36,233 nucleotides of DNA, taken from the IMG/VR virus record IMGVR_UViG_3300011115_000757, positions 1-36,233 of that record, one strand, 5' to 3'. Shown piece by piece: positions 3,261 to 14,552 of this stretch (position 1 is its first letter; the number at the start of each line of letters is the position of its first letter). The stretch is from a virus. Made by a program: the position numbers and the translations under genes. The notes below the pieces were generated by a model. That model made no database searches, was not told the origin of the DNA, and saw only the letters and a program-made list of their open reading frames with translations.

Positions 3261-3289
3261 GAACATACCAACACCGTGTTGGTTTGTTC
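3261..3289. repeat. Palindromic repeat, copy 1
   Basis: Plus-strand left arm GAACATACCAAC, spacer ACCGT, right arm GTTGGTTTGTTC. One base in the middle of the arms is unpaired. It lies between the terminator at 3294-3320 and the promoter at 3201-3229, about 31 bp upstream of the -35 box. Confidence 0.95.
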
Positions 3290-3339: not shown

Positions 3340-4197
3340 TTAAGACACTATCATGAAATGTTTGTCATTGTACCTGTAACCTACATCACGCACAAGTTCG
3401 TCGTCTTGCATAAGTTGTAGCACCGCAATACGCTCTTGCCACGACTGGGGAAGACTTGTGTATTCAAGCGCCATGATTACATCATGCTCGTCTTTGAATA
3501 TGTAATGCCCGTCCTTCTCAGCTATGACAATAGTTTTATTGCTACTAATCAAGTTATCAAACTCACTTGCTAGTTCATACTCACCCATTGCTTTTTCAAA
3601 TTGCTCAGAACTAAAGGTTTCTTTGATATGCTTGTCGATTGCATCTGGCACAGGTAAGCCCCTAACCATGCAGTACATCCACTTTTGTAGATACACTCTG
3701 TCTTTAACGAGGGACATACTGCCAACGGGGTTGCGTAGGCTTCTCAGGCAAGCAACAACAGCGGAGTCGACCGTGTCTTTGGCCTTCTTCAAGAACTCGC
3801 TGTGATCCATTCGGATGAACGACTTCTTTACCTTGCGCATGGCAATGTCCAGCTTCTCTGTTCTGGTTGTGTTCTGCCCGCCACGGAAATTCTGAATACG
3901 CCACGACTTGATCTCGTACAAAGGTTTGTACGAATTACGCCTGTACCCTGAGTCAACAGATATCTGACCGAGCATCTCGCCTTCCTCTCGCACTATGACG
4001 ATGCGCGTGTAGGTAAAACCCTCCGGTGGATTACCTGCGGGGTCGTTGTACCTGAAGCCTATCGCCGTGTTGTGGGAATCCTTGTTGGTTGTGAAAACCC
4101 ACTTGGGGTTGTTGAGCGCGAGCTTGTCCACCAATACCTTAAGGAGTGGGTCGATCAACCTGTCTGCTGGTAGTCGTATGTTTGCAAAGTTACTCAT
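3340..4197 (-). CDS. Hypothetical protein, 285 aa
   Basis: Not recognised. It is a soluble-looking mixed alpha/beta protein without signal peptide or membrane segment. The N-terminal half has beta-rich stretches with many Tyr and Arg residues (for example GFTYTRIVIV and DSGYRRNSYKP); the C-terminal half is helical and ends near a short DVGYRYNDKH strand. It is the last gene before a strong terminator. The ATG lies 4 bases past the stop of the upstream 290-residue gene, so the two are probably co-translated; the SD is weak (GGTGA). Confidence 0.75.
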   Translation of the reverse strand: MSNFANIRLPADRLIDPLLKVLVDKLALNNPKWVFTTNKDSHNTAIGFRYNDPAGNPPEGFTYTRIVIVREEGEMLGQISVDSGYRRNSYKPLYEIKSWRIQNFRGGQNTTRTEKLDIAMRKVKKSFIRMDHSEFLKKAKDTVDSAVVACLRSLRNPVGSMSLVKDRVYLQKWMYCMVRGLPVPDAIDKHIKETFSSEQFEKAMGEYELASEFDNLISSNKTIVIAEKDGHYIFKDEHDVIMALEYTSLPQSWQERIAVLQLMQDDELVRDVGYRYNDKHFMIVS

Positions 4198-4201
4198 GTG
4201 T

Positions 4202-5074
4202 TCACCATTGAAATTTGTTGAGGATGTCGTCTACGCTGTGTTTCAACTCAGCGCGTGCGCTGGGTATCTTGCGTAAGTCTTCGGGGTCGATGCCATTGAT
4301 TGCTTTCTCTAGCATGCGACGAGCTTCTTCCAGCGCTGGGTCTTTCATCACATTCAACGCAGACAAAAGCCCGCACAGTTCTAATGCGTTGTTGACCAAG
4401 CTATCGCGGAAGATATTGCGTTTGCCATCTTCCTTGTCAGTCAGGGTTTCACTCATCCGTGACAGCATCTTGTGCAGTCTGTCCCACGGATCACGCATAG
4501 CTTCGACCATCTTGTTGTTAAACATCTTGTCGTACTGCTCGGCCAAGTCCTGACGCACCCGCTCTTCGCATTGAATACGGAAGTCCCCCTTCTCTGGAAC
4601 AGGGAGGAAGTTGTACTCGAACTTGAAACGGCGGGGCAATGACGAGACATCGGGGAACTCTGACGCATCAAAGTATTTACCGAGCTTGAACGCCTGCGCA
4701 CTGACCAACGACGGATAAGCTGTTATGAAGTCATTGACCAGCGAATTGAAGTTGGATTCCATAGTACCAAGTTGCTCTCGATAGCTGAAGAAGTTCTCCA
4801 TCGGTAACAAGCCTATGCCTTTCATCCACGGCAGGGTCTGCGTACCGTTCCACGCACGACACTTGGCCGCGTACTTCTCTATCTTGTTGAGATGATCACT
4901 GCCCGCCATGAGGTACTTGTACACAGAGCTTGCGTCTTGATCAGCTTCTTTAGCAGTATTCAAGTCAGCAGTGGTTTCCTTGTCACGCTTACGCGCAGTC
5001 CATGTACTGATGCGTAGTTCGACAAGCATGGCCATTGAGGCCAGCGATACTGGGGGTGCTTCAAATGATTGCAT
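4202..5074 (-). CDS. Hypothetical protein, 290 aa
   Basis: Not recognised. The composition (many charged residues, regular hydrophobic spacing, few Cys or Gly) points to a mostly alpha-helical protein, perhaps with coiled coil. Motifs such as LNKIEKYAAKCRAWNGTQTLPWMKGIGLLPMENF are distinctive only in their Trp-rich start, which I cannot assign. AGGAG precedes the ATG by 8 nt. Palindrome copy 2 ends 25 nt upstream of the start, suggesting that expression is controlled at this point. It pairs with the following 285-residue gene. Confidence 0.75.
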   Translation of the reverse strand: MQSFEAPPVSLASMAMLVELRISTWTARKRDKETTADLNTAKEADQDASSVYKYLMAGSDHLNKIEKYAAKCRAWNGTQTLPWMKGIGLLPMENFFSYREQLGTMESNFNSLVNDFITAYPSLVSAQAFKLGKYFDASEFPDVSSLPRRFKFEYNFLPVPEKGDFRIQCEERVRQDLAEQYDKMFNNKMVEAMRDPWDRLHKMLSRMSETLTDKEDGKRNIFRDSLVNNALELCGLLSALNVMKDPALEEARRMLEKAINGIDPEDLRKIPSARAELKHSVDDILNKFQW

Positions 5075-5099: not shown

Positions 5100-5128
5100 G
5101 AACATACCAACACCGTGTTGGTTTGTTC
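5100..5128. repeat. Palindromic repeat, copy 2
   Basis: Identical to copy 1 over all 29 bp. It overlaps the stop codon of the 346-residue gene by 2 bases and ends 25 nt before the ATG of the 290-residue gene, just upstream of its AGGAG. Confidence 0.95.
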
Positions 5129-6167
5129 AGACCAGCTGGTCGTATACATTGAAATACTCAGTGTTTTGCTTGGTTGGGACTTCGCCTTCCCCAAGCGGTT
5201 CTTCAGCAAAGCATTCGTCACGATGCAGGTGCAGAATGGTTTCTTTGATGTACTCAACTGCCGAATCACGGGTAAGCGTGCGTGTCCATTGGTAAGATGT
5301 GCCAACACGAAAATGGCTTCCCTCACCTTGTTGTTTCATGATTACATAGTACGCAGTCACCCAGTTCTCGCTGAGTGGAGATGTGATCCAGTCCATGAGT
5401 ATCTTGCACGCTTGCGTGTGATATCCGGATGGAGTACGACGCCAATAACCACGCCCGCTATGCGGTAGGGCTTCGCGATTGCGTTTGTAAGTCCACGCAA
5501 TTGGATCCTTGGAGTGGTTATCTTCGTACCATTTATCAAACTCTGCCTCGCTTATGCAATCTAAAGATTTGTACAACTCATTCATTGCGTCCGTCATTTC
5601 TTGCTCGGGAATTTTTGGAAGGTTGTCGATCGACTGCACCAACTCCATCCATTCGAGAAACGGTTCGCAGTCTTTCAAGTACTTCTTCTCCATGCCACGC
5701 TTTTTACGGATTGCGTATTCGATTGGAACATCAATCATTTCTGTGGAATCAGGAGTAGCTTTGAATTTAAAACTCTTGTTGTGGGGCAACAAGAATTTTT
5801 TGTTTTTGTGTACAAGACACATACGCCCGTGATTCCATTCAAACCACATGTCCTTGGGTAAGAACGCATGGATGTTCTGAACCACATACGCAGAGTGATA
5901 TGTTGGCGAGGACACTTCGAATGTGTTGTCGGATCTCCATGTCACCAATGGTTTGTTGTAGTAGCACAGTTGGACTGTGTTGTCGTCAGGCATAGCGATG
6001 CTCGCCATGTGGTGTTTATCGCGATTCCCCAGTGGTCGACGACCAGCCGCCTGTTTACTGCGAATAGGTTTAGTCGCTTTGAATCTCTTCTCAGCTTCTT
6101 CAAAAGAAGCGATGATTGGCACTCCGGCTGTGTTGTAGCTGATATGCCATGTGTTTACATGTCCCAT
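5127..6167 (-). CDS. Hypothetical protein, 346 aa
   Basis: Not recognised. It is rich in aromatic residues (Trp, Tyr, His) with repeated beta-strand-like stretches in the first half and a helical second half. No catalytic motif is evident. The start overlaps the stop of the small ribbon-helix-helix gene by one base (TAATG), with AAAGGA 8 nt upstream, so translation is coupled to that gene. Its C-terminal codons run into palindrome copy 2. Confidence 0.75.
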   Translation of the reverse strand: MGHVNTWHISYNTAGVPIIASFEEAEKRFKATKPIRSKQAAGRRPLGNRDKHHMASIAMPDDNTVQLCYYNKPLVTWRSDNTFEVSSPTYHSAYVVQNIHAFLPKDMWFEWNHGRMCLVHKNKKFLLPHNKSFKFKATPDSTEMIDVPIEYAIRKKRGMEKKYLKDCEPFLEWMELVQSIDNLPKIPEQEMTDAMNELYKSLDCISEAEFDKWYEDNHSKDPIAWTYKRNREALPHSGRGYWRRTPSGYHTQACKILMDWITSPLSENWVTAYYVIMKQQGEGSHFRVGTSYQWTRTLTRDSAVEYIKETILHLHRDECFAEEPLGEGEVPTKQNTEYFNVYDQLV

Positions 6168-6585: not shown

Positions 6586-7009
6586 ACTGTTTACCTCCAA
6601 GAACAATAAACCAATCCAATAAAGGACTACCCTTGTCGCACATGACCGAATAGAAATATCCATCCGTGATCAAGTTAAACAACTGCTTTGGAAACAAGTG
6701 AACACAAGGCCCATCCAACTCGCTCACTTCTTTCACCATCCAACGATGAAGTTTCTCCAGACCCTCGGGATGTTTTAGGTCAAGCGGAGTAACTCCAGCG
6801 TTGTGCATCGCGCCCATCGCCTCAGCGGTGTACCCGAAACCTTCCATGAATTCGACATCTGCGTCGATCCCTTGGATAAGTCTCATGCCCGCTGGGTTTA
6901 GGCGTATATCCAACCAAACAGTGTTGTACTCATCACCTGAAGCGTGATGCCATATACCGCACTTGATCAGTGGATCATCATCAGTCAGCAATGACGAGCT
7001 TTTGCCCAT
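6575..7009 (-). CDS. Hypothetical protein, 144 aa
   Basis: Not recognised. I start at MGKSSSLLT because GAGG lies 6-8 nt upstream; this overlaps the C-terminus of the VWA gene by 29 bases. Starting 12 nt earlier (MRFRMGK) is also possible. The middle contains a region with AEAMGAMHNAGVTPLDLKHPEG that recalls a single ankyrin-like helix pair, but one copy is too little to name it. Position directly after the VWA protein suggests it works with the AAA/VWA pair. Confidence 0.7.
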   Translation of the reverse strand: MGKSSSLLTDDDPLIKCGIWHHASGDEYNTVWLDIRLNPAGMRLIQGIDADVEFMEGFGYTAEAMGAMHNAGVTPLDLKHPEGLEKLHRWMVKEVSELDGPCVHLFPKQLFNLITDGYFYSVMCDKGSPLLDWFIVLGGKQYGR

Positions 7010-8300
7010 TCGGAACCTCATACTTGTCGTTGCCAATGATGCACCACAGAGTAGGCGCAGTGATCGCCGACCACTTCTGTCTGTTGGTGTGCATGTAACC
7101 ATCGCTCAGCATGATGATCGCGTCGGGCTTCAACTGTTTCTCTACTATCAGATCAACCACGACATCTGGGTCTGTGCCACCCCCACCCTTGGGATTGGTG
7201 CGATGCACAATGTCCTTCGTCGATCCAGTAAAGATCTCATGCGCCTGTACTTCTGCGTCCCAGTACACGATGTCGAGACGGTCGATGCCAACTGACTTGA
7301 CCAAGCCATTCATCTCAGAGAGAAAGTCTGTGAGCAGTGGCCCTTCTACAGAACCGGATGTGTCCATAGCCAGCAACAGATACTTCACACGCTTACCAAG
7401 GATGCTTGGCAGGATGATGTCTTGCCACAAGAAATTCTTGTGAGCCTTGCGCCATGAGATAGAGTCTCTGTCCTTGATGTTGTTGCGAGTGAATTTCTTC
7501 AACACATCACGCCAGTTGACCTTGGGATTGAGAAGCTCTCCGATCTCGCGCGGTGTGTTACCGCCCGTCTTGCCCGCATAGATCCCGCCTTGGCGTATGG
7601 CCTGCTCGATCTCGCGTTCAAGTTGCTTCTTATCTTCCTCGGACATCTCTTTCGCACCATCCCAGTCATGGTTGTCGAAGCCTTCCTTGTCACCGAACTT
7701 ACCAACATTCTGTTGGTTTGTTCCTTTGCCACGCTTGGAATTCTCATCATTCTCGTCGTCACCTGAGCCACCCTCGGGAGGGTTGTCACAAGGTACATCG
7801 CCACCTCGGCCACCCTCGCGCTTCTTCTTCATCAGAATGTCGAAGACCTGCTTGGTGTCCATGCCACGATAAGCGGGATCCAAAAGACCATTGAGCTCAC
7901 CTGTTTCTTTAGAACGGGGAAACGCGATGAATTCTTCATCGGGATCCATGTCGACCAGTTGGATGTTGATCACAAAGTCACAAGCCGCGCCCGCGATGCG
8001 AGAGTCGATATCGTTCAACGATTTCCATGTCGTCAGGTGACGGTAGCACTTGTGCATGTTCTCGTGCATGATCAGAAACGCCAACTCTTTGTCTGTCAAT
8101 GAGTCGACAAATTGCCTGCCGTAGCCTGCGTCACGCCCGTTAGTCCACGCAGTCATATGCGGGTCGTCATGAACCTTGGTTGACCCGACCATGAACAAGC
8201 CGACGAAAAATGCAAACTTCTGATTCCTCATCAAGCTCACATGCACTAGCTCAATCCGCTTCTCAGCGGGTAGCTTACTTTTCATGACTACTGTACTCAT
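6981..8300 (-). CDS. HExxH metallopeptidase-like / VWA domain protein
   Basis: A 439-residue two-domain protein of the DUF2201 type. The N-terminal domain has HENMH (His79, Glu80, His83), a zinc metallopeptidase signature, followed by the conserved ACDFVIN segment (Asp107). Residues 160-215 form a Gly/Asp/Asn-rich linker. The C-terminal VWA domain has a complete metal-ion site: DTSGS at 313-317, the GGGGTDPD loop and MLSDGY. Proteins of this class act with MoxR-type AAA ATPases in metal insertion, complex remodelling or proteolysis; a MoxR gene lies 1.2 kb upstream in the same operon. Palindrome copy 3 is embedded in the linker codons 193-202. Confidence 0.85.
   Translation of the reverse strand: MSTVVMKSKLPAEKRIELVHVSLMRNQKFAFFVGLFMVGSTKVHDDPHMTAWTNGRDAGYGRQFVDSLTDKELAFLIMHENMHKCYRHLTTWKSLNDIDSRIAGAACDFVINIQLVDMDPDEEFIAFPRSKETGELNGLLDPAYRGMDTKQVFDILMKKKREGGRGGDVPCDNPPEGGSGDDENDENSKRGKGTNQQNVGKFGDKEGFDNHDWDGAKEMSEEDKKQLEREIEQAIRQGGIYAGKTGGNTPREIGELLNPKVNWRDVLKKFTRNNIKDRDSISWRKAHKNFLWQDIILPSILGKRVKYLLLAMDTSGSVEGPLLTDFLSEMNGLVKSVGIDRLDIVYWDAEVQAHEIFTGSTKDIVHRTNPKGGGGTDPDVVVDLIVEKQLKPDAIIMLSDGYMHTNRQKWSAITAPTLWCIIGNDKYEVPNGQKLVIAD
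7695..7723. repeat. Palindromic repeat, copy 3, inside the VWA gene
   Basis: Left arm GAACTTACCAAC, spacer ATTCT, right arm GTTGGTTTGTTC. It is wholly inside coding sequence and encodes GTNQQNVGKF (residues 193-202) of the flexible linker, so the repeat tolerates translation without breaking either domain. Confidence 0.92.
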
Positions 8301-8482
8301 GTCTGTTTCTCCATGTGTTGTTTAAAGTCTTTGACAATGGCATCGCGCATCTTGTCATCCTCTAGGATGGCGTGAATAAACCTCTTTGCCCCATACTCTT
8401 GTTGCCTGTACTTGAACGCATAGCCCGTAGCTATGATCGCCCAACAAAACAAAGCTATTTCTGTGATTGATACTTCAATCAT
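8297..8482 (-). CDS. Small single-pass membrane protein, 61 aa
   Basis: Not recognised. Residues 3-20 (EVSITEIALFCWAIIATGYA) form one hydrophobic segment, followed by a basic and then charged helical tail of 40 residues, so it is likely anchored in the inner membrane with the tail in the cytoplasm. AGGAGG lies 9 nt upstream of this ATG, which decides the start. It overlaps the start of the VWA gene by 4 bases and may tether that protein to the membrane; this is inference from position. Confidence 0.72.
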   Translation of the reverse strand: MIEVSITEIALFCWAIIATGYAFKYRQQEYGAKRFIHAILEDDKMRDAIVKDFKQHMEKQT

Positions 8483-8639
8483 TTGGGTATCCTCCTGTTG
8501 CTTTAATCTCAAGAATCCACAACTCTAAGAGATGGGCTTCCTCGTTTAGGTCAAGCATGCGCAAGTGATGAGCAAGCTGCATGCCGGTTTGATAAACCAA
8601 TTCAACGGTTTGTTCTCGGGGGGTGACTGGTATCTCCAT
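8475..8639 (-). CDS. Hypothetical protein, 54 aa
   Basis: Not recognised. A short helical protein (TVELVYQTGMQLAHHLRML, then EEAHLLELWILEIKAT) with regular hydrophobic spacing. The start at MEIPVTP is chosen because the longer frame upstream overlaps the 84-residue gene completely and reads poorly. A purine-rich AGGGCGGG element precedes the ATG. It overlaps the following membrane protein gene by 8 bases. Confidence 0.6.
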   Translation of the reverse strand: MEIPVTPREQTVELVYQTGMQLAHHLRMLDLNEEAHLLELWILEIKATGGYPND

Positions 8640-8649
8640 GATTCCCGCC

Positions 8650-8904
8650 CTAGTTCGGTTTGTCTGTCTCAATGTCGGACAAAGCAAGAAACTGCATGTC
8701 ATACACAGTTGATACTGCTTCCATGACATCGCTCTTGTCCACTTCATGTCTGACAGACAGACCACAAAGCATGTTGACCAACACATTCCAGACCATCGCT
8801 GTGTCCAGATCGGAAGCATCAAACACCTGAGCCACAGCTGACTGCACTGCCCGTATGACAAGTTCTTCCTTGCCTTCGGCTTCTCGTACGCCTCGAATAG
8901 TCAT
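8650..8904 (-). CDS. Hypothetical protein, 84 aa
   Basis: Not recognised. Predicted all-helical (ELVIRAVQSAVAQVF, TAMVWNVLVNMLCGL, KSDVMEAVSTVYDM), acidic at the C-terminus. The ATG overlaps the stop of the upstream gene as ATGA with an SD (AGGAG) 6-9 nt before. It belongs to the run of six small genes between the AAA ATPase and the VWA protein. Confidence 0.7.
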   Translation of the reverse strand: MTIRGVREAEGKEELVIRAVQSAVAQVFDASDLDTAMVWNVLVNMLCGLSVRHEVDKSDVMEAVSTVYDMQFLALSDIETDKPN

Positions 8905-9143
8905 TTGGTTCTCCTGATGAATTTACCGTTCATGTCGAATTCGTAGTCGGGAAACTGCGCATCCAACTGCTTGGCCATGCGGGCCATGATGTTGCCCGCT
9001 TGGATGACAAGGCCGCGAGCCTCGAGTACTTCGCCCGTCGCGGCATTCTTGTTATATATGAGTTTATGCGCACGATTCTGCATGTTTTTGTATGTGGCCA
9101 CCATACCACGCCACCCGATCTTTGCTTCTTCCAATGTTGTCAT
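8901..9143 (-). CDS. Hypothetical protein, 80 aa
   Basis: Not recognised. A basic, helical protein (EEAKIGWRGMVATYKNMQNRAHKLI; later LVIQAGNIMARMAKQLD). CAGGAGAG precedes the chosen ATG; the longer frame would start inside palindrome copy 4. The repeat ends 21 nt before this ATG, as in the other palindrome-led genes. Overlaps its neighbours by 3-4 bases on both sides. Confidence 0.7.
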   Translation of the reverse strand: MTTLEEAKIGWRGMVATYKNMQNRAHKLIYNKNAATGEVLEARGLVIQAGNIMARMAKQLDAQFPDYEFDMNGKFIRRTK

Positions 9144-9298
9144 GATTTCTCTCCTGTTGTTGGTGAACATTCCAACACCGTGTTGGTTTGTTCGTCGTCT
9201 ACTACCACACTTATGATGCGCACACCATCAAAGATCTCGACGATCTCGTAGTCCGCGCCCGCTCTGTCGAGCACCTCGTAAAGTTCTGCTGGTGTCAT
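9140..9298 (-). CDS. Hypothetical protein, 52 aa
   Basis: Not recognised. The core MTPAELYEVLDRAGADYEIVEIFDGVRIISVVVDD looks like a helix followed by two or three strands. Its last 17 codons run through palindrome copy 4, giving the sequence EQTNTVLECS. AAGGAA lies 6 nt before the ATG, and both ends overlap neighbours as ATGA. Confidence 0.62.
   Translation of the reverse strand: MTPAELYEVLDRAGADYEIVEIFDGVRIISVVVDDEQTNTVLECSPTTGEKS
9165..9193. repeat. Palindromic repeat, copy 4
   Basis: Left arm GAACATTCCAAC, spacer ACCGT, right arm GTTGGTTTGTTC. It falls in the 3' coding end of the 52-residue gene and ends 21 nt before the next ATG. Confidence 0.93.
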
Positions 9299-9474
9299 TT
9301 CGTTTCCTTGTTGGATGTTCCAAAAAATCCCAATACCATTTTGTACTCGTCGGGATATGCGTCTCTCATATCGATCATCAACCTGAGAAAAGCGCAATCA
9401 TTCTGCACCTCCTCCCTAAAAATGACGAGGCACTCGACTACATACATCCATGCAACTATTGCGTTTGGGTTCAT
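9295..9474 (-). CDS. Hypothetical protein, 59 aa
   Basis: Not recognised. The frame fills the gap between the AAA ATPase stop and the 52-residue gene exactly, ending in an ATGA overlap, which supports it as real. It encodes an aromatic, helical protein (AIVAWMYVVECLVIFREEV, later DMRDAYPDEYKMVLGFFG). The ATG is 2 bases after the ATPase stop, with AAAGG upstream inside the ATPase end. It is too short to name. Confidence 0.65.
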   Translation of the reverse strand: MNPNAIVAWMYVVECLVIFREEVQNDCAFLRLMIDMRDAYPDEYKMVLGFFGTSNKETK

Positions 9475-9476
9475 GA

Positions 9477-10556
9477 TTAACCTTTCAACCCAGCAAACAT
9501 GTACTGGTTCTCACGCGCCCATGTAACGAACGACGGATGACCCATGACCCATGCTTTCTTAACAGGAATCTCGAGGATCTGGTTGATAAACACAGCTTGC
9601 GTTTCTTTGGGCATACGCTTGATGTAGCGCATCCATGTGGCGAATGTCTCACGGGTAGAGACAGCCACGGCCTTGAAAGCCAAGATACATTGAGCCGCTG
9701 GGCTTGTCGGTATCGGGGTCGAGTCGGGGCTGTTCAGGATGCTCTCGCTTGTGGGCAACTGATCAGACAATGAGATATACGCCTGCAAGTCCCGCGACGC
9801 TGATCTGCCGATCGTGCCGTCGAGTGCCGCGATCAACGCATTCTCTGATATGTTGTGACGCACATTGATCCAATGCGATGCCTTGTACGCAGTACGGGGG
9901 CAGAAGAACGCTTCTTGCGATGGATCGCTTGGTTGGTAGATGTATGTATTCTCTTTCTGCCCGCCATCCAAGTACGACGCCATGCAATGCGGATACTCTT
10001 TGACCCACGCCTGCATCTCAGGTGCAACACCGTTGTTCGCGGCCCAGACCAACCACTCGCTCGCTGTTGGTTTCATGTAGTTGATCCATGTCTCACGGCT
10101 ACGGGTATGCGCCTTGACATGGTCACCGACATTGTCCGACCCCAAGTTGCCCGTTGTGAACACGATGGTGTCAGGGTGCAACTCATAGTCACCCAGTCTG
10201 CGCTCATGCAGTAGAGGGTGCAGGGTGTTGCGCACATAGTCATCAGTCTTTGTCCATTCGTCGATCATGAGGACAAGGGGTTCACCAGTGTGCAGACCAT
10301 ATCGCGCTGCCGGATAAAAGTCCAAGGTGCGAGTCTCATGGTTAGGGATCGGCATACCGGACTGACCGACATCGGTGTTGGGGCCGTCGATGTAGATACC
10401 CTTGAAGCCGGTGCGCTTGATGATCTCTTTGTGCATGGCGGTCTTGCCGACACCGGGCTCGCCAGTCAGGTGGACTGCGTTCTCGCCCGCATTGAGGATG
10501 AGGTCAACCGTCTCGGTGAAGTTGAGACGACGGACAAATGAAATTTCTCTAGACAT
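9477..10556 (-). CDS. MoxR-type AAA+ ATPase
   Basis: A 359-residue AAA+ ATPase. Walker A is GEPGVGKT (residues 32-39), Walker B is LVLMIDEW with Asp99 and Glu100, sensor 1 is FTTGN with Asn137, and basic residues of HTRSRE follow. The order and the short N-terminus fit the MoxR/RavA branch, whose members remodel or load metal into target proteins together with VWA-domain partners. The partner here is the HExxH/VWA gene six small genes downstream. AAAGGAAAC precedes the ATG, and palindrome copy 5 ends 30 nt upstream of it. Confidence 0.88.
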   Translation of the reverse strand: MSREISFVRRLNFTETVDLILNAGENAVHLTGEPGVGKTAMHKEIIKRTGFKGIYIDGPNTDVGQSGMPIPNHETRTLDFYPAARYGLHTGEPLVLMIDEWTKTDDYVRNTLHPLLHERRLGDYELHPDTIVFTTGNLGSDNVGDHVKAHTRSRETWINYMKPTASEWLVWAANNGVAPEMQAWVKEYPHCMASYLDGGQKENTYIYQPSDPSQEAFFCPRTAYKASHWINVRHNISENALIAALDGTIGRSASRDLQAYISLSDQLPTSESILNSPDSTPIPTSPAAQCILAFKAVAVSTRETFATWMRYIKRMPKETQAVFINQILEIPVKKAWVMGHPSFVTWARENQYMFAGLKG

Positions 10557-10586: not shown

Positions 10587-10615
10587 GAACAAACCAACAC
10601 CATGTTGGTTAGTTC
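10587..10615. repeat. Palindromic repeat, copy 5
   Basis: Left arm GAACAAACCAAC, spacer ACCAT, right arm GTTGGTTAGTTC. It contains the TAA stop of the zinc-ribbon gene and lies 30 nt before the ATPase ATG. Confidence 0.94.
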
Positions 10616-10899
10616 GACGAGCGGGGGTTTTTCTGATTCGTATCCATCAGAACCTGCGGGGCAGCTTCCGGTGTTACGAGCATGTACGGCCCCTTGCCGT
10701 ACGGTTGCACCACGCACCAAGATGCGCGATCAGCGACTGCGGCTTGTTGCCCGCAGTGTAGGCAGAGTCTGTAGCCAAGGGCCCAGCGCTCTGCATGGAC
10801 ATCATCCCCACAGTGGGTGCATGACATCCATTCGAAACGATCGTCATTACCAGGGTAAATCTGATCGTCATCCAATTCTGTAGAAATGGGATACAGCAT
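10609..10899 (-). CDS. Zinc-ribbon protein, 96 aa
   Basis: A small protein with four Cys in a CTHC (27, 30) and CLHC (46, 49) arrangement, a classic zinc ribbon. The rest is acidic at the N-terminus and Pro-rich at the C-terminus. Such proteins bind nucleic acid, RNA polymerase or a partner protein; nothing here decides which. Its ATG overlaps the upstream stop as TAATG and its own stop lies inside palindrome copy 5. Confidence 0.75.
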   Translation of the reverse strand: MLYPISTELDDDQIYPGNDDRFEWMSCTHCGDDVHAERWALGYRLCLHCGQQAAVADRASWCVVQPYGKGPYMLVTPEAAPQVLMDTNQKNPRSSN

Positions 10900-12811: not shown

Positions 12812-12982
12812 TTATTCCGGTGTGAATTCCAATTCCCACAGAATCAGAACGGCCATGCCGAAAAAGGCCAACACGAAGGCCACCATTTGGCCGGTGTCAA
12901 TCGAGCCCGCCAGCCAACAGAAGAACGACACGGGTGCCATGATGGCCGAAAGAATACCGGTGAAACCAAGAAATGTACGCAT
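12812..12982 (-). CDS. Small two-helix membrane protein, 56 aa
   Basis: Two hydrophobic segments (residues 3-25 and 32-50) joined by a short polar turn, ending in ELEFTPE. The size and topology fit a small inner-membrane protein such as a holin-like or superinfection-immunity protein, but nothing in the sequence selects one. TTGGAG lies 7 nt before the ATG and is fused to the U-tract of the preceding terminator. It is enclosed by terminators on both sides. Confidence 0.72.
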   Translation of the reverse strand: MRTFLGFTGILSAIMAPVSFFCWLAGSIDTGQMVAFVLAFFGMAVLILWELEFTPE

Positions 12983-12991
12983 AGAAGACTC

Positions 12992-13015
12992 CAAAAGAAA
13001 AGCCCCCGAAGGGGC
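12992..13015 (-). terminator. Rho-independent terminator abutting a ribosome binding site
   Basis: Minus strand stem GCCCC, TTCG loop, GGGGC, then TTTTCTTTT. The U-tract runs directly into TGGAG, the SD of the next gene. Confidence 0.75.
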
Positions 13016-13022
13016 AAAGGGT

Positions 13023-13229
13023 TTACAGGAATTCACGGTAGATGAATTCAGCGAATATCTCACTGGGTTTTACCCAGTGATTCAGCGCGCGAAATTCCTC
13101 GAGTTTTTCACTGCACTCAGGTTGAGCGCACCAAACAGACCCCAAACGCGTACGCTTGCGGATAGTCTTGCTGTCTTGAACCAACTCGACTCGAGTAAAA
13201 AACACCAATTGACCAACGATTTTATCCAT
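13023..13229 (-). CDS. Hypothetical protein, 68 aa
   Basis: Not recognised. Basic in the first half (SKTIRKRTRLG), with two Cys (SVWCAQPECSEK) that could bind metal if paired in a dimer, and a helical, aromatic C-terminus. The leader CTTTTGGAGTCTTTC before the ATG is nearly identical to that of the next gene. Terminators lie on both sides, so it forms its own small unit within the leftward transcript. Confidence 0.7.
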   Translation of the reverse strand: MDKIVGQLVFFTRVELVQDSKTIRKRTRLGSVWCAQPECSEKLEEFRALNHWVKPSEIFAEFIYREFL

Positions 13230-13254
13230 GAAAGACTCCAAAAGAAAGAATAGG

Positions 13255-13279
13255 GAAAGACGGGCGCTGTCACCGCCCG
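13255..13279 (-). terminator. Probable weak terminator or leader hairpin
   Basis: Minus strand stem CGGGCG, 7-nt loop, CGCCCG, followed by TCTTTCCC, a poor U-tract. It lies 9 bp past the stop of the 257-residue gene and may only attenuate. Confidence 0.45.
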
Positions 13280-13288
13280 CCAGTATGG

Positions 13289-14062
13289 TTAGCCCAAGGC
13301 CAAAGAGGCCGCAGTCAACCGCTCAAGACCCTCGACCGAACCGGACTTGGCCCACTCAGCCGCACGCTTTTTCAGCGCATCATGTATGACCTTGATATCG
13401 GCCTGCAATTTAGCCTGCTCGGGCTTAGCCCTGTTTTCCAATTCCTTGGCAATGGCCGTGGCTTCACGCATTGACTTTGTGTCACCCTTGGCCACCAACT
13501 CGGCTTTTTGGTCGAGCAATTCACCATCGGACTTGGCCGCATACTTGGCCGCTTCAGCCGCACGCTTAGCCGCCATGCGCTCAGCATCCACAGTCTTAGA
13601 CTTAGGGCTTTGCCAGCCAAGAGCACGCAACCGAGCAATTTGACGCTCGAATTGACGCTCGGCCGCATCCGGTGTAGGCGCACCGCAGTCAAAGTATTTC
13701 GCAACAGCCCAAGACCGGACTTGCAAGTACTCCGGATAGGGAATCGGCACGAAGACCATGACCGGCTTGCCATCTTGATCGGTGACAGGTTTGCCCTCGA
13801 TATCGAGGCGGGCAGTGCGGGCTTTGACCTGCTTGCCGTCAACTGTTTCCCAGACTGTCAGCCAGTCCAACAGCAAGGCATCAGCTTGTTGCACTTGCTC
13901 TTCACCACGAGCCATCATTTTCTCACCATTGGAAGTAGACTGGAAAATCTCTTCCAAGGAGGCCTGAGCTTCAGCCAGTGAACGACCTGCGACCATCTCG
14001 ACCGCAGAACCAACAGCGCTTTGGGCGGGCGCAGTAACCGCTTGAGTGGCTTTGTTTGCCAT
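13289..14062 (-). CDS. Hypothetical protein, 257 aa, first leftward gene
   Basis: Not recognised. The N-terminus is Ala-rich; a central segment (residues 65-135) has strands and ends YLQVRSWAVAKYFDCGAPTPD; the C-terminal 120 residues are an Ala/Lys/Glu-rich coiled-coil candidate. No catalytic motif is seen. As the first gene left of the divergent region and led by palindrome copy 8 (36 nt upstream), it is probably the earliest expressed. SD is TTGGAG 9 nt before the ATG; the upstream extension MFERFARFF would read through the leader hairpin. Confidence 0.75.
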   Translation of the reverse strand: MANKATQAVTAPAQSAVGSAVEMVAGRSLAEAQASLEEIFQSTSNGEKMMARGEEQVQQADALLLDWLTVWETVDGKQVKARTARLDIEGKPVTDQDGKPVMVFVPIPYPEYLQVRSWAVAKYFDCGAPTPDAAERQFERQIARLRALGWQSPKSKTVDAERMAAKRAAEAAKYAAKSDGELLDQKAELVAKGDTKSMREATAIAKELENRAKPEQAKLQADIKVIHDALKKRAAEWAKSGSVEGLERLTAASLALG

Positions 14063-14098
14063 GATGTATTCTCCAATAAAGAATCGAGCAAAACGCTC

Positions 14099-14128
14099 GA
14101 ACAAACCAACAGGTTTGTTGGTATGTTC
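14099..14128. repeat. Palindromic repeat, copy 8
   Basis: Left arm GAACAAACCAAC, 6-bp spacer AGGTTT, right arm GTTGGTATGTTC. On the minus strand it is followed at once by a second small hairpin (TCGAGC, GTTTT, GCTCGA at 14083-14099) and then TTCTTTATTGGAG. Confidence 0.95.
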
Positions 14129-14552
14129 AGGTAGAAGGCATCACCCTTCCGCCATGATTTAATTATGACAGAATGATTAGATTTAGGGGAAAACCGCACA
14201 CCGGATTACACCCAATGTATCAGGTCGGCACAGCCCGCAATGCTAAAGAACAGGCCGGAAAAAAATCGCGAAACTTCCTCCGGCTACACCCCTTCTCAAG
14301 AACCTGGGTGAGAACTCCGAGACCCCCACACCCCCAAATTTCGACATGTGACTCCCCGCATACATACACAGTGTTTTGCACACCCGATGAGCAAAATTTA
14401 AAACAGGGGGGAGGGGGTATAAAAATTTTGGAGTTCTACCGGCAGCACTCCACCAGAAAACACCCCCGGGTAGGATTCCTTACCTCCTCTTGCAAACGCT
14501 AGTATGTTTCTGTTACAGTCGCGCATCCTCTTTACGGAGTGCCCTTGAAAGT
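14129..14552. other. Divergent non-coding region between early and late arms
   Basis: No gene is supported. On the minus strand TGTCATAAT (14162-14170) is an extended -10 candidate for the leftward genes, without a clear -35. A C-rich tract (14322-14335) faces a G-rich tract GGGGGGAGGGGG (14406-14417), and the latter is flanked by an 8-bp inverted repeat CAAAATTT...AAATTTTG. No convincing rightward sigma70 promoter was found, so late genes may need a phage factor. Confidence 0.6.

Follow-up and report, generated by a model that had tools for sequence, protein, structure and literature searches.

A MoxR-like ATPase, DUF3150 and a metallopeptidase-VWA protein as a candidate three-component machine of phages and plasmids

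We analysed the whole 36,233-base virus record IMGVR_UViG_3300011115_000757 (hereafter the window), which encodes on its minus strand a MoxR-like AAA+ ATPase and a protein with metallopeptidase and VWA domains. An original prediction for this DNA had described the two as a remodelling complex, with six small genes between them acting as adaptors. We find that the conserved third partner is not one of these small genes; it is the DUF3150 gene at 4202-5074 (minus strand), which had been overlooked. Our reading is that ATPase, DUF3150 and metallopeptidase-VWA protein may form one three-component machine, serving mobile DNA at replication or establishment and not virion building; we give it a probability of about 45%. 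The ATPase/VWA pair is already known, i.e., as gp24/gp25 of phage N4 and from jumbo phages. What is added here is the three-gene module including DUF3150, which occurs across phages and plasmids. The data show the genetic linkage of the three, the sequence constraint, the intact catalytic motifs and the neighbourhood of DNA-metabolism genes; the complex, its mechanism and its stage of action are inferred.

With regard to layout, the window consists of a left block on the minus strand, which includes a family A DNA polymerase gene (polA, 628-2460; PHROG 17, E-value 7.4e-87) and nuclease genes, and a right block on the plus strand, where the terminase, portal, capsid and tail genes are found. 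The module adjoins the polymerase and nucleases and is thus not encoded on the same strand as terminase, portal and capsid. In the direction of the minus strand, the ATPase gene (9477-10556) is followed by six small open reading frames (ORFs), all with ribosome-binding sites, and then by the metallopeptidase-VWA gene (6981-8300), just as predicted. The accompanying statement that all these genes overlap by a few bases has to be corrected: overlaps of 4-8 bases are present at 5/7 junctions, while a 2-base gap separates the ATPase gene from the first small gene and a 10-base gap lies between 8650 and 8639. A DNA-level search of the region in phage records gave zero matches.

The ATPase (359 amino acids) matches Pfam AAA_5 (E-value 3.5e-6) and, over residues 15-354, PHROG 1297 'ATPase' (E-value 7.7e-46). 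Its Walker A (GEPGVGKT, 32-39), Walker B (VLMIDE, 95-100) and sensor 1 (TTGN137) motifs are complete, as had been claimed, and Walker A, the acidic pair of Walker B and sensor 1 are kept in an alignment of 17 sequences. Identity across 30 relatives ranges from 68 to 96% (median 77%), with ratios of nonsynonymous to synonymous substitution rates (dN/dS) of 0.06-0.13, i.e., purifying selection. The best Pfam match is the dynein-related AAA_5, and AAA_3 is not among the listed matches. This is in accordance with a wider ATPase profile, for which midasin is closest among PDB structures, consistent with the AAA_5 clade. Homologues in Synechococcus phage MinM2 and in pSYSA carry a MoxR annotation.

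The partner protein (439 amino acids; DUF2201_N + DUF2201; PHROG 1314, N4 gp25-like) combines a zincin-type metallopeptidase domain with a VWA domain, given its Pfam matches to PF13203 (putative metallopeptidase, 5.7e-22) and PF09967 (VWA-like, 2.4e-15). Both of its sites were predicted to be intact, and this holds: the HENMH motif (79-83) and the set of residues of the VWA metal site (MIDAS; DTSGS 313-317, T376, D400) are invariant in 24/24 aligned sequences. Among distant homologues, HExxH is intact in 14/15 and MIDAS in 15/15. The protein is under purifying selection (dN/dS well below 1). In its AlphaFold model, the N-terminal domain is fairly confident and is joined to the VWA domain (305-439) by a linker of low confidence (163-303). 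In a fold search with the whole model, which tested mainly residues 302-439, the VWA fold finds its best structural match with Z 11.2 and a root-mean-square deviation of 3.0 over 139 residues; NorQD (9qhe_G) is among the structural matches in the Foldseek list only. Support for the N-terminal domain as a zincin comes from Pfam, the catalytic motif and two weak matches, to MJ1213 selecase and to an M48 peptidase, both of them zincins. PHROG 1314 and many phage records, e.g., NC_013691 and NC_023581 in RefSeq, name the protein 'HNH endonuclease'. We consider this name a misnomer, as Pfam domains and fold are those of a metallopeptidase plus VWA protein.

DUF3150 (PF11348) is the most constrained gene of the block. 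Its identity of 71-97% in 27 relatives has the highest median in the block (81%, compared to 77% for both ATPase and polA), and its dN/dS of 0.03-0.04 is the lowest among the genes measured there; together with ATPase and polA it makes up the slowest-evolving proteins measured. The order ATPase-VWA-DUF3150-polA is kept wherever a contig is long enough (29, 27 and 27 loci). That is, ATPase and VWA genes show the same order in 29/29 contigs where both could be modelled, DUF3150 follows the VWA gene in all modelled contigs that extend to this point (27 loci), and polA lies downstream of DUF3150 in 27/27. The three contigs without DUF3150 end 155-948 bases past the VWA gene, and a search of whole records found DUF3150 in 10/10 relatives. 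Profile matches of DUF3150 to apolipoprotein A-IV were set aside, as they seem to reflect generic similarity among helical repeats. A literature search found no paper on DUF3150.

Conservation of the ATPase/VWA pairing had been set beforehand as one of the points on which the prediction could fail. It extends beyond the 29/29 relatives to N4-like and jumbo phages. By tblastn, 504 phage records contain the VWA protein and 266 the ATPase; N4-like phages account for many of these. In N4-like phages (Schitoviridae), gp24/gp25 are an AAA+ ATPase followed by a DUF2201-type metallopeptidase-VWA protein upstream of a family A DNA polymerase, and they are homologous to the window pair (tblastn, PHROG), with only about 23-29% identity. 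The window pair shares their ATPase family (PHROG 1297), the two-domain protein (PHROG 1314), the order and strand, and the location near polA. Both count among the 14 genes that make up the core of N4-like phages, and both are middle-transcribed (PMC4193335); the main text of the CRISPRi-ART paper contains no result on them. LUZ7 and Presley have one small gene between the ATPase and VWA genes, compared to six in the window, and the VWA gene is followed by helicase or exonuclease V and then by DNA polymerase A. The intervening gene is an HNH endonuclease gene in G7C, while Bacillus phage G has nine genes at this position. For group 2.2 jumbo phages, a MoxR plus metallopeptidase-vWA pair with the same described domain architecture was published in 2021 (Iyer et al. 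2021, PMC7824862), in a text from which DUF3150 is absent. Those are jumbo phages for which virion assembly was proposed, whereas the window virus is a small terminase/portal phage contig. The full trio is found in MinM2, as a cluster with other small genes interspersed. When profiles of the window block were compared to the MinM2 genes tested, only these three proteins turned out to be shared. Two Planktothrix phages carry the same DUF3150 relative.

The trio is not restricted to phages. We found a DUF3150 relative on 41 plasmid records and a VWA relative in 41/41 of them, in 40/41 within 142 bases of DUF3150 and on the same strand. In the inspected plasmids, ATPase, DUF3150 and VWA are neighbours, and an AAA ATPase lies upstream in all inspected VWA-bearing cases (about 3.6 kb upstream in a Simplicispira plasmid). 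Carriers of the compact three-gene operon are large Burkholderiales and Acetobacteraceae plasmids. All three of its proteins are homologous to those of the window (DUF3150 with E-value 2e-36 to Rhodovastum). The plasmid operon differs in having its three genes directly adjacent in the order ATPase-DUF3150-VWA; the window has DUF3150 on the far side of the VWA gene and contains inserted small genes. In a chromosomal search of 398 genomes sampled from one phylum, DUF3150 relatives were found only in G002, which had itself been found via this gene. The PF11348 model alone missed genomes known to hold relatives, so that such a result was not taken as absence. Given the occurrence in phages and plasmids and the rarity in the sampled genomes, the module looks like mobile-element cargo. 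Other arrangements were observed as well: pSYSA carries the ATPase/VWA pair without DUF3150 nearby, and in a Manganitrophus plasmid (L040, 9839-12861) DUF3150 follows an AAA ATPase, together with DUF1257 and DUF2997 and without a VWA gene. Judging from the latter, AAA proteins may be partners of DUF3150 in other gene combinations as well. A PRTRC (ParB/ThiF) cassette is present on 34/41 plasmids, mostly 6-12 kb from the operon; L038 and L051-L053 show this arrangement. The proximity is only suggestive, since these plasmids are related by descent and 372 plasmids carry PRTRC.

How such a machine might work can be sketched by analogy to MoxR-VWA chaperones such as NorQ/NorD and RavA/ViaA, which likewise combine an AAA+ ring ATPase with a VWA/MIDAS protein. 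NorD shows the same layout of N-terminal domain, linker and VWA domain as the window protein (PMC9976466). In NorQ/NorD, a finger of the VWA domain enters the ATPase pore and ATPase action remodels the linker, while the MIDAS is required for activity on the target and not for ATPase binding (PMC9976466; PMC13036017). Following this plan, the window ATPase would form a hexameric ring on which the VWA domain docks; the VWA metal site would then bind an acidic patch on the target, and ATP-driven force would travel via the flexible linker to the N-terminal zincin domain. There, the target would be remodelled or cleaved, i.e., a protease would take the place of the metal-loading domain of NorQ/NorD. 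From its linkage and constraint, DUF3150 could be the dedicated target or a target-delivering subunit, and the whole machine would act for mobile DNA at the replication or establishment stage. A more specific version can be put forward only tentatively: an undescribed ATP-driven proteolytic remodeller (AAA+ / DUF3150 / zincin-VWA) of lytic freshwater phages, cyanophages and large conjugative plasmids that acts on a shared replication or establishment factor, with DUF3150 as substrate or adaptor. Three components including a distinctive third protein next to AAA+ and vWA are also known from MoxR-vWA-VMAP ternary conflict systems (Kaur et al. 2020, PMC7159879); the third protein is VMAP there and DUF3150 here, with the VMAP model not searched by name.

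With regard to the stage of action, the published proposal for the group 2.2 jumbo-phage pair is virion assembly, drawing on the analogy to a MoxR-VWA pair of an archaeal two-tailed virus (PMC7824862). In this view, tail or head proteins would be folded or assembled with the help of the pair and trimmed by the zincin, and some N4-like phages indeed have virion genes near gp24/gp25 (PMC4193335). On the other hand, these proteins are also encoded by a compact plasmid operon, and since plasmids do not produce virions, this speaks against virion assembly as the core function. Moreover, the window genes lie next to polA on the strand opposite to the structural block, i.e., the trio is neither virus-only nor placed beside structural genes. 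We therefore regard the building of virus particles as an unlikely core job of the trio; the location among polymerase and nuclease genes opposite the virion genes, together with the plasmid occurrence, favours replication or establishment. The same early-side location would also suit a host take-over or counter-defence protease that unfolds and cleaves a host protein, e.g., a defence or replication factor. Phages and plasmids share host barriers, and the 397 further genomes of the sampled phylum without a match point to rarity outside mobile elements. Still, with constraint this strong and conservation this wide, a fixed partner is a better fit than a host target that changes quickly, and the PADLOC defence models gave no convincing match, such that we hold this explanation to be doubtful. 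Rather improbable is a chaperone for metal insertion or cofactor loading like NorQ/NorD or CoxD/CoxE. It shares the domain logic of AAA+ ring and VWA with MIDAS and linker, but the VWA partners of NorQ/NorD, RavA/ViaA and others are not described with a zincin peptidase domain, whereas here the N-terminal domain belongs to a zincin metallopeptidase family whose HExxH is kept in most homologues (see above). Furthermore, neither the window nor the phage and plasmid neighbourhoods inspected yielded a match to a metalloenzyme target gene, i.e., none is kept alongside.

The remaining explanation is that of the original prediction, namely that the complex has dedicated adaptors, encoded by the small genes lying between the pair. 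All six lie on the minus strand, and we searched for them by iterated profile searches of the slots in the 29 loci holding both large genes. Starting from the ATPase, they encode 59 (9295-9474), 52 (9140-9298), 80 (8901-9143), 84 (8650-8904), 54 (8475-8639) and 61 amino acids (8297-8482) and were found in 5/29, 14/29, 11/29, 8/29, 20/29 and 18/29 loci, respectively. The 54-residue product is probably helical and the most widely kept of the six. The 61-residue one has a single predicted N-terminal membrane helix (hydropathy 1.74 at residues 1-19), which agrees with the membrane protein expected directly before the VWA gene; in the relative locus L020 its ORF occurs at a different place. The presence of these two in most loci and the translational coupling to the VWA gene speak for adaptors. 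However, none of the six is kept in all 29 loci, and the slot holds 1 to 8 ORFs and is between 222 and 1696 bases long, where the shortest slot (L020) holds a different, unrelated ORF. In other phages, the slot is filled with unrelated genes, including the endonuclease gene of G7C, and a profile comparison detected none of the window's small genes among the MinM2 or N4-like genes tested. We reject the adaptor reading because the small genes are variable and undetected in these phages; as an explanation it is highly improbable. What is left of the proposed complex is a remodelling pair with conserved pairing. The small ORFs are mostly real genes and lineage-specific: their dN/dS is mostly 0.16-0.78 (0.10-0.18 for the 80-residue ORF), such that most evolve faster than the large genes. 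Several are under purifying selection, which is less clear for the 52- and 54-residue ORFs (0.37-0.78).

Several observations weigh against a three-component machine acting in replication or establishment. By profile searches, no DUF3150 was found in six whole N4-like and jumbo phage genomes, including LUZ7, Presley and G7C, and neither LUZ7 ORF36/ORF38 nor Presley 32 matched it. DUF3150 is therefore not needed everywhere, because these phages have the pair without a detectable copy. The assignment of the window gene is close to the limit (26.9 bits at a cut-off of 24.9), the plasmid and MinM2 homologues fall below the PF11348 cut-off, and the predicted structure of DUF3150 is unreliable (pLDDT 51) and too poor for a fold search. 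The 41 plasmids mostly have related Burkholderiales backbones and are hence not independent cases. Finally, Variovorax plasmids have lost HExxH, among them L039, whose VWA homologue (12935-14218) keeps MIDAS. Proteolysis is thus dispensable in at least one lineage, and remodelling without cutting is possible.

The module is of interest beyond the window for several reasons. N4 gp24/gp25 are core genes of a whole phage family and yet, in the sources consulted, still listed as unknown, as vWFA-domain protein or as putative ATPase, and the common 'HNH endonuclease' label of the VWA protein turns out to be misleading. The plasmid operon with its defined third partner is a small expressible system for testing the function outside of a phage, and the plasmid link makes the published virion-assembly idea directly testable.

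Some neighbouring features were recorded as well. Directly upstream of the ATPase gene, a small zinc-ribbon-like protein (CxxC...CxxC; 10609-10899, minus strand) is encoded. It is present in 27 relatives with a median identity of 68%, which equals the conservation of the VWA protein. DUF3150 is flanked by two larger minus-strand genes (5127-6167 and 3340-4197) without informative PHROG or Pfam match; both are syntenic in about 27 relatives yet fast-evolving, with median identities of 36% and 41%.

The 5' leader of the ATPase gene contains a palindromic element, AACCAACATGGTGTTGGTTTGTTC (10587-10610, minus strand), found by comparing pattern matches with chance expectation. It belongs to a repeated palindrome, about GAACAAACCAACACGGTGTTGGTATGTTC, with copies in the minus-strand block at 3267, 5106, 7701, 9171, 10593 and 12533. 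Copies lie in the 5' leaders of the ATPase gene, of DUF3150 (about 5106) and of a nuclease gene, and one is inside the linker of the VWA protein. The palindrome may be an operator, a promoter hairpin or a mobile repeat; its count is far above chance, and it is mainly found in the window and its near relatives.

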